DNA of 64,000 nucleotides from Bacillus gobiensis (GTDB taxonomy: Bacteria > Bacillota > Bacilli > Bacillales > Bacillaceae): the NCBI RefSeq assembly GCF_001278705.1, contig NZ_CP012600.1, forward strand, positions 4,127,417 through 4,191,416, read 5' to 3'. Below the pieces are notes generated by a model. That model worked only from the letters and a program-made list of their open reading frames with translations. It did not search any database and was not told the DNA's origin. Of this stretch, positions 12,668 to 51,814 are shown piece after piece. Within the stretch, counting starts at the first letter, position 1. Every line of letters begins with the position of its first letter. Position numbers and translations under genes: made by a program.

Positions 12668-13534
12668 TTACTCCCAAAGTTTTTGCCATGCTTTACGAAT
12701 TGATAACATGGTTTTCTGGAAAAACCCAAGTTTGGCAGGTTCACTTGTAGTACTGTTAATGCCAGGTGCAGGTTTACCTGCAGTACTGTAAATACCAGGT
12801 GCAGATTTAGTACCTCCGCTCTTATTTGCAATGTTGTTTTTAATTACTGTGTAGAGTATATCGTTTGCGGATAAACCGTATCTAAATATATCCAACAGTC
12901 TGCTGTCCCCAAACGTTTGGACTAAATTAATTGGCACAACTGTAAATCCGGACTTTTCCAATTTTTTCACGAAGTCTTTTCTTCGATAAATTTTAACTGT
13001 ACTTTTATTGCTGTTATTAGCATGGAGAGCAATCGGAGCCTGCATTATGGCCCAGCCATCATTTCTCAGAACACGATGCAGTTCTTTCATAGCCTTTTCA
13101 TCATCCGGGACACGTTCTAGTACATGACTGCAGATGATTACATCGAATGTTTCGTCTGGATAGTCCAAGTTTGTCAAATCGAGTTTTCGGCTGCCGGATT
13201 CAGAAGTCACATATCCTCCCGAATATTCTACATTTGACATGTCTTTGAGCCAATTTCGCAAACTTGGTTCAAGCCCAATATGAAGAATACGGTTGAGGCC
13301 TTTTTTGAGATCTGTTTTCTCTTCGATATACAATCGGTACATTCTTTCTCGGTCCATTGAAAAACAATGGGGACAAATGGCAGTATTCTTGTTCCACACT
13401 TCTAAAGTCGCATCGGAATATTCTGATTTATCGGACCATGGAATGAACTGTTGAAACTTATTCTCACAAAACTGGCATTCAAAAGCAGTCGTGATCTCTT
13501 CCGTTTTATGTTCAGTATTAGGATTGTTATCCAT
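12668..13534 (-). CDS. SAM-dependent methyltransferase with N-terminal cysteine pairs and an 11-residue repeat
   Basis: 288 residues from ATG 13534, preceded by GGGGAGAGGG; a longer in-frame extension to 13696 has no ribosome site. Two CxxC pairs (CQFC near residue 20 and CPHC near 52) suggest a small zinc-binding module. The class I methyltransferase core follows: ILHIGLEPSLRNWL as an altered motif I, LDLTNLDYPDETFDVIICSH, then the VLERVPDD and ELHRVLRNDG segments. The C-terminal tail carries two tandem 11-residue repeats (TKSAPGIYSTA, GKPAPGINSTT). It heads the minus-strand operon with the two glycosyltransferases. Methylation of a sugar or glycan end is inferred from neighbours. Confidence 0.75.
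   Translation of the reverse strand: MDNNPNTEHKTEEITTAFECQFCENKFQQFIPWSDKSEYSDATLEVWNKNTAICPHCFSMDRERMYRLYIEEKTDLKKGLNRILHIGLEPSLRNWLKDMSNVEYSGGYVTSESGSRKLDLTNLDYPDETFDVIICSHVLERVPDDEKAMKELHRVLRNDGWAIMQAPIALHANNSNKSTVKIYRRKDFVKKLEKSGFTVVPINLVQTFGDSRLLDIFRYGLSANDILYTVIKNNIANKSGGTKSAPGIYSTAGKPAPGINSTTSEPAKLGFFQKTMLSIRKAWQKLWE
12747..12812 (-). repeat. 33-bp tandem repeat (two units) inside the methyltransferase gene
   Basis: Units 12747-12779 and 12780-12812 are both exactly 33 bp and match at most positions. They encode the 11-residue APGI-containing linker repeat of the methyltransferase tail, and the reading frame is kept. Confidence 0.85.
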
Positions 13535-20797: not shown

Positions 20798-21359
20798 TTT
20801 GTCATCACTCTTTTTCTATATAAACTTTGCAATCTTTTTCAAGCTATATCATATATCAATTTACCTGCAAGCTCAATTGGTAGGTTTTATATAAGGGGAA
20901 TTTACTAAAAGTGCCATGGGATTGCATGGGCGCAGGTACGTGGTAAAATTGCACGGATAGGCCATGGAATTGCATAGAAACAACGGTTTGCCTCTGCATT
21001 TTTGCTGCTGTTTCCCTGCTGCAAGCATGTAATGCAGCTTCCCGACATTCGAAAGAAGTGAGTTGTATCAAAACTGTCATACCAAATATAAATTTTTTAA
21101 ACTTCCACTTAAATATTTTCCATTTTACAGTGTGATTTACTATAATATAGTAATGATGGCATAGTAGAGCGAAAATGTGAGGATAACATGTGACTAATCC
21201 GAATTTGAGTAGAATATTATAATGTCTGCATAGTTTTTTCGGTATTTTAGTACTAACCAAGTGTATAGATTTATATATTTAATAGTTAAATGTTCCAAGT
21301 AGCTATTTTTAAATTATAGAAAGAAATAAACACCTATACTCTAGAAGGAGAGAATTAAA
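20798..21359. other. Intergenic region between aguA and rtcB, with a short TGCAATT repeat
   Basis: About 560 nt without a recognised gene. A 134-codon open frame on the minus strand (20856-21260) has no ribosome site and low-complexity content and is not called. On the minus strand two GCAATT-containing units lie exactly 21 nt apart (AATTGCAC 20947 and AATTGCAT 20968 on the plus strand), with a further copy 27 nt away. They resemble the arrays at 38834 and 51773. Confidence 0.5.
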
Positions 21360-36781: not shown

Positions 36782-37687
36782 ATGAACACGATCGCACAAA
36801 AGAAACAACAAGAATCAGTGAAAGCACATAAATCTATCCGACGTCATGAACCATCATCCGAATCAAGATGGGTCAAGGTTAGTTTGATCTCTCTTTGTTA
36901 CTTGTTTGTCGCTTTGTTTTTGCTGCTCCCTCTTTTTTTAGTATTCATTAAAGCCTTTGAAAGAGGATTTGGCACTTATCTGGAGGCGATTACGAATCCG
37001 GATGCAATTGCGGCAATTAAGCTGACTTTGCTTGTCTTAATCATATCCGTCCCTTTAAATGCCCTGTTCGGCGTAGCTGCTGCATGGTTTGTCACGAAAT
37101 ACGAGTTTAAAGGGAAACAGGTTTTGACAACTATTTTGGACATTCCATTTGCCGTTTCTCCAGTCATTGCCGGTTTAATTTTTGTTCTTTTGTTCGGGTC
37201 AACCGGAGTTTTTGGACCTTGGTTAATCGAGAATGGCTTAAAGATCATTTATTCAGTACCAGGCATTATTTTGGCTACGTTATTTGTGACCTTTCCGTTT
37301 GTTGCACGTGAGCTGATTCCGTTTATGCAGAGCCAGGGAACGTCAGAGGAAGAAGCGTCTCTTACGCTCGGAGCGGGCGGCTTTAAGACATTTTGGCTTG
37401 TGACTCTTCCTAATATTAAATGGCCGCTGCTATATGGGGTTATCCTGTGCGGGGCAAGGTCTGTTGGTGAATTCGGCGCCGTTTCTGTCGTTTCCGGGCA
37501 CATTCGCGGATTGACGAATACGATGCCTTTGCATATTGAAATCCTTTATAACGAGTATCAATTTTCTGCAGCCTTTGCAGTAGCATCCCTACTATCAATT
37601 TTTGCCGTTTTGACCCTAATTATCAAAGGATTGTTAGAGCGAAAAGCAAAATCGGCCGAAAAATCGTTTTCCAAGAACGGAGTGTAA
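36782..37687 (+). CDS. cysW: Sulfate ABC transporter permease
   Basis: 301 residues: a basic N-terminal tail of about 30 residues, six membrane segments, and the EAA loop EEEASLTLGAGGFKTFWLVT. ILDIPFAVSPVIAGLIFVLL and ARSVGEFGAVSVVSGHIRG are hallmark stretches of CysW. It pairs with CysT to form the sulfate channel. Its stop overlaps the cysA start by one base (TAATG). Confidence 0.95.
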   Translation: MNTIAQKKQQESVKAHKSIRRHEPSSESRWVKVSLISLCYLFVALFLLLPLFLVFIKAFERGFGTYLEAITNPDAIAAIKLTLLVLIISVPLNALFGVAAAWFVTKYEFKGKQVLTTILDIPFAVSPVIAGLIFVLLFGSTGVFGPWLIENGLKIIYSVPGIILATLFVTFPFVARELIPFMQSQGTSEEEASLTLGAGGFKTFWLVTLPNIKWPLLYGVILCGARSVGEFGAVSVVSGHIRGLTNTMPLHIEILYNEYQFSAAFAVASLLSIFAVLTLIIKGLLERKAKSAEKSFSKNGV

Positions 37688-38748
37688 TGATGGGTATCAC
37701 CATTGAACAGATTGACAAGTCCTATGGTACGTCTACTATCATAAAAGACCTTAGCTTAACCATTCAGAAAGGAGAGCTGATTTCTCTGCTGGGGCCTTCT
37801 GGATCGGGGAAGACGACGCTGCTTCGCATAATTGCCGGGCTGGAGCATGCAGACAGAGGAAAAATTCTTTTTGAAGGAATTGACCAGACAAATACGCATG
37901 TGAAAGAACGTAATGTAGGGTTTGTTTTTCAGCACTATGCCCTTTTTCAAAACATGACTGTATTTGATAACATCGCATACGGATTACGGGTGCGGCCGCG
38001 AAAGGAAAGGCCGACCAAAAAACAGATTGCAGAACGTGTGAATGAGCTGCTCGAAGTGGTGAAGCTGACCGAATGGAAAGACCGTTATCCTGCGCGGCTG
38101 TCAGGAGGACAAAGGCAGCGGGTGGCTTTGGCCCGCGCGCTTGCTGTTAATCCCAAAGTGCTCCTTCTCGATGAACCATTCGGTGCGCTGGATGCGAAGG
38201 TGAGAAAAGAGCTTCGGCGCTGGCTGAGGAAAGTGCATGATGAGTTTCAAATTACCAGTGTTTTTGTTACTCATGATCAGGAGGAAGCATTGGATATTTC
38301 GGATCGAGTGGTCATTATGAATGAAGGGGAAATTGAACAAATCGGCACACCTGAAGAAGTATATGACAGACCAGCCACGCCGTTTGTTTATGATTTTCTC
38401 GGAAATGTAAACCAATTTAGCGGAAAGATTTCTGACGGCTATCTCCTTGATGGAACAATCAAAATCGAAATCCCTAAAGAGCTTGATAAGAGTCCTGGTT
38501 CAGGAGTAGCCTATGCGAGGCCACATCGTTTTTCCATCAGCAAAGAGCCGGCAGGTGAGCATTCTATTCACTCAGTTGTGCTGCATGTTCAAAAGCTCGG
38601 CCCCATCGTTCGATTAGAATTACAGAGAAAAGATACCAATAGACAAATTCATGTCGAATTATCCGAGGATGAATTCGCAGAGTTAAAGCTTGAAGAAGGC
38701 GAAGAGGTCTTTGCAACAGCAAAGGAATTGACGGTTTTTTCATCTTAA
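37687..38748 (+). CDS. cysA: Sulfate ABC transporter ATPase
   Basis: 353 residues. Walker A GPSGSGKTTLLRIIAGLEHA, Q-loop FVFQHYALFQNMTVFDNIAY, signature LSGGQRQRVALARALA, Walker B VLLLDEPFGALDAKVRKEL and the H-loop FVTHDQEEALDIS are present, followed by the C-terminal TOBE-type regulatory domain. It drives sulfate uptake. Two tandem ATG (37687 and 37690) are possible starts. It is the last gene of the operon and is followed by a perfect terminator. Confidence 0.95.
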   Translation: MMGITIEQIDKSYGTSTIIKDLSLTIQKGELISLLGPSGSGKTTLLRIIAGLEHADRGKILFEGIDQTNTHVKERNVGFVFQHYALFQNMTVFDNIAYGLRVRPRKERPTKKQIAERVNELLEVVKLTEWKDRYPARLSGGQRQRVALARALAVNPKVLLLDEPFGALDAKVRKELRRWLRKVHDEFQITSVFVTHDQEEALDISDRVVIMNEGEIEQIGTPEEVYDRPATPFVYDFLGNVNQFSGKISDGYLLDGTIKIEIPKELDKSPGSGVAYARPHRFSISKEPAGEHSIHSVVLHVQKLGPIVRLELQRKDTNRQIHVELSEDEFAELKLEEGEEVFATAKELTVFSS

Positions 38749-38756
38749 ATATTTTG

Positions 38757-38789
38757 CCTTATCTCTATTTGCCAGAGATAAGGTTTTTT
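38757..38789 (+). terminator. Terminator of the sulfate operon
   Basis: CCTTATCTCT and AGAGATAAGG form a perfect 10-bp stem with a 7-nt loop and six T. Confidence 0.93.
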
Positions 38790-38833
38790 ATATGTATAAT
38801 TAAGAAGTAAATCAATATCTGGGCGACGGCTTT

Positions 38834-38980
38834 TGTACAATTATCATGGTGAACTGTGCAATTCTGTCACGTTTTTGTTCGATTATCTTGGTGATTTGTG
38901 AAATTCCGTCCCTCTTCTGAGCAATTGACTCAGTAAATTGTGCAATTCCGGCTGACATTTGTGCAATTAAGCAGGGTATT
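38834..38980 (+). repeat. 21-nt periodic array, seven units with TGTGCAATT core
   Basis: Seven consecutive units start at 38834, 38855, 38876, 38897, 38918, 38939 and 38960, each exactly 21 nt. Each begins with a form of TGTGCAATT (for example TGTACAATT, TGAGCAATT) followed by 12 more variable bases. Units 1 and 3 share ATCWTGGTGAWY, and units 2 and 4 share CYGTC, which suggests an older 42-nt unit. The array is intergenic; its last part runs close to the TatD-like gene. It is not CRISPR-like: there are no long identical repeats. Confidence 0.9.
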
Positions 38981-39032: not shown

Positions 39033-39806
39033 TTGAAAAAAATCATAGATGCCCATATTCACTTGGATCAATATAAAGAAGAAGAGCTGACTGCTATTTT
39101 TCAAGAGGCTTCCTTGCTAGAAGCGATCGTTTCAGTCTCTTTTGACCTCCAATCGTGCAAAAAGAACCTATCGCTATCGAAAGCGCACTCGAAAGTGAAG
39201 CCTGCGTTTGGCTTTCATCCTGAACAACCTCTCCCATCTGAAAGCCAGCTGCAAACACTTGTGGCCTGGATTGAAAAGAACCGCTATGACATGGCAGCTA
39301 TCGGGGAAGTGGGGCTGCCTTATTACCTTAGAAAACAAAAGAAAAATGGCAGCTTTTCATTAAACAAGTATATTGAACTGTTGGAGACCTTTATCGTTCT
39401 AGCAAAAAAATGGGAGAAACCAATTGTCCTGCATGCCGTTTATGAGGATGCTCCTATTGTGTGTGACCTTCTGGAGAAACATTCCTTATCAAAAGCACAT
39501 TTTCATTGGTTTAAAGGTGATCCGAAAACGATTGAACGAATGATACAGAATGGTTATTTTATTTCCGTAACTCCCGACGTCGTTTATGAGAAAGAAATTC
39601 AAGATTTGGTCAGGGTGTATCCTATGGAGCGATTAATGGTCGAGACAGATGGACCTTGGCCATTTGAGGGACCATTTAAAGGAATAATGACGAGTCCATT
39701 GATGATTCACCAGTCCATTGAAACCATCGCGGCTTTAAAAAAAGCTTCAATAGAGGACACATATCTAAAAATATTAGTGAATACAAAAAAATTCTACAGG
39801 ATTTAA
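39033..39806 (+). CDS. TatD-family metal-dependent hydrolase
   Basis: 257 residues from TTG 39033, placed 6 nt after AGGAGTG; an in-frame GTG at 38940 lies inside the repeat array and is rejected. The metal-binding DAHIHLDQY is at the N-terminus, with the AIGEVGLPYY Glu near residue 87, the VLHAVYEDAP His near 134, HFHWFKG near 160 and VETDGPWPFEG with the last metal Asp. The order is that of TatD/YcfH amidohydrolases, which act as DNases or on other phosphodiester or amide substrates. The sequence is a divergent branch, so the substrate is open. Confidence 0.85.
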   Translation: MKKIIDAHIHLDQYKEEELTAIFQEASLLEAIVSVSFDLQSCKKNLSLSKAHSKVKPAFGFHPEQPLPSESQLQTLVAWIEKNRYDMAAIGEVGLPYYLRKQKKNGSFSLNKYIELLETFIVLAKKWEKPIVLHAVYEDAPIVCDLLEKHSLSKAHFHWFKGDPKTIERMIQNGYFISVTPDVVYEKEIQDLVRVYPMERLMVETDGPWPFEGPFKGIMTSPLMIHQSIETIAALKKASIEDTYLKILVNTKKFYRI

Positions 39807-51772: not shown

Positions 51773-51814
51773 TGTGCAATGATCAGTGTAATTTGAGCAA
51801 TTAATTGGTATAAC
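51773..51814 (+). repeat. Two 21-nt units of the TGTGCAATT type
   Basis: TGTGCAATG at 51773 and TGAGCAATT at 51794 start two 21-nt units. An eroded unit may precede at 51752. Same core and period as the array at 38834-38980. Confidence 0.75.

Follow-up and report, generated by a model that had tools for sequence, protein, structure and literature searches.

The STAR elements of staphylococci (Staphylococcus aureus repeat) appear to be the nearest described kind of repeat to the arrays considered here. In the excerpted account of these elements, they are direct repeats that are interspersed between genes and have a conserved motif and a start signature (PMC3532100). The motif is 14 bp long and GC-rich, T(G/A/T)TGTTG(G/T)GGCCC(C/A), and its copies are separated by spacers of about 40–44 bp, and at least 40 bp (PMC3532100). 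These spacers are locus-specific and stable within a lineage, the number of units changes, and the function is stated there as unknown (PMC3532100).

At the level of mechanism, two protein–DNA systems are of interest, again as portrayed in excerpted accounts. E. coli gyrase has a 130-bp motif with G/C phased at 10 bp, which is enriched downstream of operons and in BIME-2 elements (PMC6379681). RemA forms octameric rings around which repetitive DNA is proposed to be wrapped, with six protected 7-bp regions that lie 3 bp apart (PMC8481266). REPs, as these partial accounts give them, are palindromic and alternate in orientation within BIMEs.

Other comparable repeats include plasmid iterons, which are direct repeats near 20–22 bp, DNA uptake sequences, which form lineage dialects of a genome-wide word, CRISPR arrays, in which constant and variable parts alternate, and the bcr repeats of B. 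cereus. No description of the 21-nt arrays reported below was found in the open-licence PMC literature searched, and this conserved non-coding family of common Bacillaceae seems to be undescribed there.

The array and its family in the Bacillus gobiensis chromosome

The window analysed here is a stretch of 64,000 nucleotides, bases 4127417–4191416 of a single 4,597,587-bp contig. It contains seven intergenic units whose cores, read off the window sequence, begin at 38834, 38855, 38876, 38897, 38918, 38939 and 38960, in exact 21-nt steps, and carry in order the words TGTACAATT, TGTGCAATT, TGTTCGATT, TGTGAAATT, TGAGCAATT, TGTGCAATT and TGTGCAATT. The coordinates and cores claimed in a first-pass annotation are as found here, and its statement that the units follow without a slip holds for this array, while 20- and 22-nt steps occur elsewhere. 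The similar units that it placed at 51773 and 20947 are real, but they are only two-core matches with two mismatches each (Table 1). TRF reports part of the array at a 42-nt period with 81% matches. A separate 33-nt tandem repeat of 2.3 copies (85% matches) is found at window positions 12735–12809.

Table 1. Features of the window that bear on the array and its surroundings.
Feature	Position in window	Strand	Basis
Seven-unit array of 21-nt units with a TGTGCAATT-like core at unit positions 1–9	38834..38980	+	Sequence, pattern search
G-rich stretch preceding the first core, possible weak left end	38820..38829	+	Weak inference; GGG is weakly favoured immediately before arrays in the B. gobiensis chromosome (0.3 bits per position)
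Intrinsic terminator of the upstream gene, 49 nt ahead of the array	38756..38784	+	11 pairs; 1 found vs 0.3 in shuffles
Upstream gene, ABC-transporter ATP-binding protein with TOBE-like domain	37687..38748	+	
Downstream gene, TatD-family DNase	39033..39806	+	Likely start TTG 39033 after AGGAG, picked by eye; longest ORF begins at 38940, within the array
Two-core match, 2 mismatches, possible remnant	51773..51802 (genome 4179189)	+	Pattern search
Two-core match, 2 mismatches, possible remnant	20947..20976 (genome 4148363)	-	Pattern search

The array is one of many in this chromosome. The pattern TGTGCAATT-N12-TGTGCAATT, with up to three mismatches, has 126 chromosome matches (68 + 58) compared to 2 (1 + 1) for the reversed pattern. 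Exact GTGCAATT pairs with a gap of 5–34 nt number 50, and their spacing is 21 nt in 24 cases, 42 nt in 15 and 41 nt in 8, with one each at 20, 22 and 39 nt and none in the control. This means that 49 of the 50 lie at 20–22 or 41–42 nt. A scan blind to the core also puts the arrays above other periods, with 18 places at period 21 compared to a total of 6 at 19 other periods (14–33), in 216,021 bases comprising the window and 21 stretches chosen for holding arrays. The earlier suggestion of a real element family, with more periodicity than control sequence, is therefore upheld.

About 25 array loci in this chromosome are counted among the matches listed, some of them with no more than two or three cores. 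The fetched stretches gave 21 arrays with at least three units and 19 with at least four; the number of units is exactly seven in 11 of the 19. The ends of the element are weak in B. gobiensis. No replication-orientation bias of the arrays was seen by eye from their positions. The two largest array-free gaps (1.37 Mb and 0.87 Mb) cover the position opposite dnaA and the dnaA locus (3556197); among 20,000 random placements, a gap of such size falls at dnaA in 3.6%, opposite dnaA in 0.17%, and at both in none, in a post hoc comparison that uses a hand-made list of 25 loci. In addition, a group I intron (Rfam RF00028, 81.8 bits) lies on the minus strand at L188:76-403 (genome about 2693075–2693402); a flagellin-like gene and the array that most resembles that of the window are both within 7 kb of it.

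Each unit combines a conserved core with a variable remainder. In 250 units from 57 arrays (of 70, after 13 from homogeneous or foreign loci were dropped), positions 2–9 (GTGCAATT) carry 1.5–1.9 bits each and positions 12–18 at most 0.16 bits, with mostly A or C at position 10. The A/T fraction is 0.69–0.81 at positions 17–20 compared to 0.37–0.52 at positions 12–16 in each dialect group, and the bases differ; FJAT-47783 is an exception in that position 20 is mostly C. Because A/T rises again at positions 17–20, the A/T-rich parts are about one helical turn apart. The spacing of the units by two helical turns, also noted at first pass, is likewise supported.

A second order of repetition is present in the unit middles. 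The identity of middles at lag 2 minus that at lag 1 is +0.139 in 19 B. gobiensis arrays and +0.124 in 22 Mesobacillus/Cytobacillus arrays, values reached by 0 of 2000 unit-order shuffles, and the 42-nt alternation surmised from the window array is therefore real beyond it. The difference is small in B. pinisoli and in FJAT-47783, whose arrays have about eight units, first steps of 20 nt, last steps of 21 nt and position-specific sequence. Taken over lineages, arrays contain some 5 to 8 units at steps of 20–21 bp and span roughly 105–170 bp in total.

The arrays lie mostly just past gene 3′ ends. Gene positions were tallied for 90 arrays, 19 from B. gobiensis and 71 from elsewhere, with genes taken as simple longest ORFs; 46 of 119 loci, with non-Bacillales titles (one an unplaced Bacilli MAG), were left out. 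Distance to gene ends, which the first-pass annotation had singled out for plotting, has a median of 64 nt past the stop codon in the 59 of 90 arrays with a same-strand gene at most 500 nt upstream. Genes occur within 500 nt on both sides of 71 of the 90, with 27 convergent and 6 divergent pairs, and with tandem pairs running with the array direction in 24 cases and against it in 14, a weak bias; these arrays are not independent, because seven homogeneous or coding-repeat loci and several orthologous copies are included. The other genomes without those seven loci (n = 64) give 17 convergent, 16 and 11 tandem, and 5 divergent. Seven of the 90 arrays fall within a longest-ORF call, and most of these are homogeneous arrays or simple ORF calls. 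A terminator precedes the window array and often precedes arrays elsewhere.

The neighbouring genes have little in common. Among 33 proteins flanking B. gobiensis arrays, no family has more than two members and no common function is apparent. Ten proteins beside large arrays comprise eight with ordinary Pfam domains (enzymes and one flagellin-like protein) and two without a match.

Distribution, core dialects and evolution in place

The pattern is found in at least 119 stretches of a species-representative collection, counted among the matches listed, and 73 of these have Bacillales titles. In a sample of 397 genomes of the order, a three-core match occurs in 61 genomes and in 30 of 135 genera, and at least five matches with a zero control occur in 22 genomes of 10 genera. 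The reversed-pattern control is non-zero in 12 genomes, and weak positives are partly background because in a few genomes (e.g. G124, G132, G183 and G288) the matches do not exceed the control.

Within the genus the picture differs. The ten other congeners in the 397-genome sample have no three-core match, and 43 same-genus genomes have 0–12 weak two-core matches compared to 0–7 in controls, which is background. When 400 kb of one congener was scanned without reference to the core, period 21 came up at two places, no more often than other periods. The expected enrichment in many relatives therefore holds for related genera, mostly outside genes, but not for the sampled members of the genus itself. 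The best congener match beside the window array has 75% identity over 650 nt of the ABC gene, and B. gobiensis is therefore a deep branch; its congeners may have lost the arrays long ago. Terrilactibacillus (L122, L126, L132 and L179) has long, near-homogeneous arrays of this period that reach 28 units, some of them inside longest-ORF calls; these arrays are possibly recent expansions.

Lineages differ in the word that serves as core. Other lineages use GCGCAATT, CTGCAATT, GAGCAATT or TTTACTGTCCAATT, and the period is unchanged. ISL-41 has GTGCAATT arrays together with many in which GGCACGATT is followed by GGGCAATT or GGGAGATT. At the two sites with alignable middles that were examined, X and Y, the arrays of ISL-41 and the GTGCAATT arrays of its sister species are orthologs, so the core has changed within orthologous arrays. 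Middles of the same index are 0.65–0.68 identical there compared to 0.32–0.45 for other indices. None of the ten ISL-41 cores matches its ISL-37 counterpart, and seven of them differ by T to G at position 3; species of the common dialect also vary in their cores at these sites, with identities of 0.88 and 0.92. At a further site, Z, both dialects are present and the middles do not align, and therefore whole arrays also get replaced. These lineage cores, together with the core change at orthologous arrays, the near-constant unit number per lineage and the Mesobacillus ends described below, go beyond what the first-pass annotation had noted.

Some individual loci add to this variety. GTAGTGATT arrays at 21-nt steps behind ATGTAAAAA (L143:4107 and L284:1528) represent a further Mesobacillus core type, and an array with a TTTACTGTCCAATT core at 21-nt steps (L241:1431) has the same dialect as genome G140. 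At L063:2556-2830, two arrays of differing dialect stand in succession, each with its own left end.

Arrays adjoin the same genes across Mesobacillus species and between Mesobacillus and Cytobacillus. At such orthologous arrays the GTGCAATT core changes about 3–4 times slower than the unit middle, a contrast that is somewhat inflated because the loci were found through their cores. Seven pairs from ISL-55 and M. selenatarsenatis differ at 34/512 in the core and 102/448 in the middle, counted from both sides (Fisher p = 4e-7 with halved counts), at 286/1637 in the flanking 60 nt and at 617/7805 on the gene side. Ten other ortholog pairs differ at 19/439 in the core, 65/377 in the middle and 702/3947 in the upstream 400 nt. 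Units are lost or gained in exact 21-bp steps.

Mesobacillus arrays have defined ends. The right end AAGAGAATAATTTTTCCAG, with up to two mismatches, has 42 matches in five Mesobacillus genomes compared to 1 in controls. Thirty of these loci were fetched, two of which cover the same array pair and many of which are orthologs; five units precede the right end in 23 and four units in five, generally behind a left end like TTTTCCAAAATTAGGATGA, and the other two are one remnant and one probable chance match. These ends are common to different core types. At the L288 site, two genomes have no array and two have an array of the second dialect that has the same left end. At the one filled and empty site compared, no target duplication was seen.

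The L285 site has a 21-nt array in other species and another tandem repeat, about 52 nt long and with the inverted ends TGTGACC...GGGCACA, in ISL-55, ISL-37 and M. boroniphilus (L320, L326 and relatives). In Cytobacillus oceanisediminis (L321), this site seems to keep only a left end and one core-like word, by eye a possible decayed array.

A putative DNA-binding protein and competing readings

The array may be a copy of a dispersed DNA-level element that is read by a putative oligomeric, probably bending, DNA-binding protein of shifted specificity. This reading is given about an even chance of being correct. Constant geometry, changing words, slow cores and helically placed A/T together point to a protein that reads and bends DNA, and the different core words of the lineages suggest, likewise, that a putative DNA-binding protein reads the arrays. 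The location after genes suggests a role in insulation or topology. Cooperative binding of a protein, already proposed for the window array, is a good inference from the sequence that is strengthened by the slow evolution of the core and the helical placement of A/T.

In such a mechanism, some 5 to 8 like sites, one every 20–21 bp or two helical turns, would all face the same side of the DNA, and each core would be followed about one turn later by an A/T-rich stretch. The putative oligomeric protein would recognise the cores and probably bend or wrap the roughly 105–170 bp of the array. A nucleoprotein block would then form just past gene ends and terminators, where it would most likely limit how far transcription reads through, or supercoils spread, from one gene to its neighbour. 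The word that is recognised would differ by lineage because the specificity of the protein had shifted and the sites had followed; selection in trans would thereby drive the dialects.

A bolder version of this idea, which is doubtful, is a DNA-packaging or insulator system with a nucleosome-like footprint. Here a dedicated wrapping protein would act on elements of ~147 bp at gene 3′ ends and co-evolve with 20–30 arrays per genome. The length of ~147 bp would correspond to left end + 5 x 21 + right end in Mesobacillus, or to 7 x 21 in B. gobiensis, and a lineage would adopt a new core word in place, one unit at a time.

It is also conceivable, if rather unlikely, that the arrays are non-autonomous mobile or self-copying repeats (MITE-like or STAR-like) which land after terminators and have no host function, the core and ends being what the copying machinery recognises. 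Dispersed copies, the patchy presence in 61 of 397 genomes, ends shared by different core types, filled and empty sites, and the 77% identity of two B. gobiensis arrays to each other would all fit, and insertions would do least harm past gene ends. However, copies keep to the same genes across species, and their cores evolve more slowly than both middles and flanks. Moreover, no transposase or other common gene family was found beside the arrays examined (33 + 10 proteins), the one site compared lacks a target duplication, and at sites X and Y the homology of the middles counts against fresh copying.

An explanation by strong gyrase sites, or by binding sites for RemA or another general wrapping protein, is unlikely. 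An anisotropically bendable array would capture the wrapping enzyme where positive supercoils gather past gene ends. A/T phasing of about one turn and the location after gene ends and between convergent ones are consistent with this, as are the excerpted descriptions of an E. coli gyrase motif that is phased and enriched downstream of operons (PMC6379681) and of RemA rings proposed to wrap repetitive DNA (PMC8481266). Eight near-invariant core bases and lineage dialects nonetheless exceed the specificity that either protein is described to need. Both gyrase and RemA are also expected in relatives without arrays.

An RNA-level 3′ UTR element, whose transcribed core would be bound by a protein or small RNA, is improbable. 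Such an element would agree with the 59 of 90 arrays that follow a same-strand gene and with the strong hairpin (folding z = -3.2) of the array at genome 1900419. Yet for 67 arrays in four groups the mean folding z against segment-swapped controls is only -0.26 to +0.13 over both strands, and in a matrix of pairing between 183 neighbouring segments the high values (z up to 3.8) are isolated cells that form no continuous antidiagonal. Hairpins between neighbouring units are therefore rejected as a general feature. In addition, a terminator precedes the array in the window and often does so elsewhere, a Rfam search of six loci (E up to 0.1) gave three hits, none of them on an array, and unpaired RNA would presumably not need strict two-turn spacing.

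It is very improbable, and rejected here, that the array derives from a gene encoding seven-residue protein repeats, the repeat-gene origin that the first-pass annotation had named as a refutation: 21 nt equals seven codons, the most-open frames are open in 31/67 arrays (minus strand) and 25/67 (plus strand, core frame), and third codon positions 3 and 9 of the plus frame vary more (10/64 each), but position 6, also a third codon position, differs in 2/64, the core has eight nearly invariant bases in succession, any frame is broken by the 20- and 22-nt steps, and none of the frames is open in as many as half of the 67 arrays. The arrays thus have no coding or RNA-structure signal. A plasmid, phage or viral origin is likewise rejected, since the window array has no plasmid or phage match and the six viral contigs with the three-core pattern all hold near-identical or palindromic repeats (five within an ORF of at least 80 aa).

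If one protein does read the arrays, their dialects would be a natural record of a DNA-binding specificity changing along with dozens of sites, and the joint change of a regulator and its genome-wide sites would become directly testable. The arrays may also reveal how Bacillaceae insulate neighbouring genes from read-through or supercoiling.

Comparison with known repeat systems

Unlike plasmid iterons, the arrays occupy about 25 chromosomal loci, and the one in the window is without plasmid or phage match. As regards an adjacent replication initiator gene, such as iteron arrays have, no family is shared among the 33 flanking proteins and the proteins beside the large arrays are ordinary, at the loci that were annotated. 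The variable parts are much shorter than CRISPR spacers and stay at their locus as they are inherited.

Like STAR elements as partially described, the arrays consist of direct repeats that share a conserved motif and are dispersed between genes. They differ from that description in having an 8-bp core, GTGCAATT, a remainder of 12–13 nt and a period of 20–22 nt, as well as a near-fixed unit number and lineage dialects. With regard to the STAR start signature, Mesobacillus arrays have a clear left end of other sequence, and the left end in B. gobiensis is weak.

REP/BIME elements and gyrase sites, in the excerpted accounts, resemble the arrays in being dispersed between genes and after operons and in having phased base composition; as in a strong gyrase site, where it extends over about 130 bp, this composition follows the helix, with two A/T-rich stretches per 21-bp unit. 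Units of the arrays are all direct and form no general hairpin, in contrast to REPs. The RemA regions of Bacillus subtilis are similar in that they are repetitive, AT-rich direct repeats of helical period with a proposed wrapping around a ring. RemA sites are described, however, as poorly conserved with a 10-bp step, whereas the arrays have a strong core every 21 bp at many loci. By these partial descriptions, gyrase/BIME sites and RemA-type wrapping would be the closest mechanistic analogies to the arrays.
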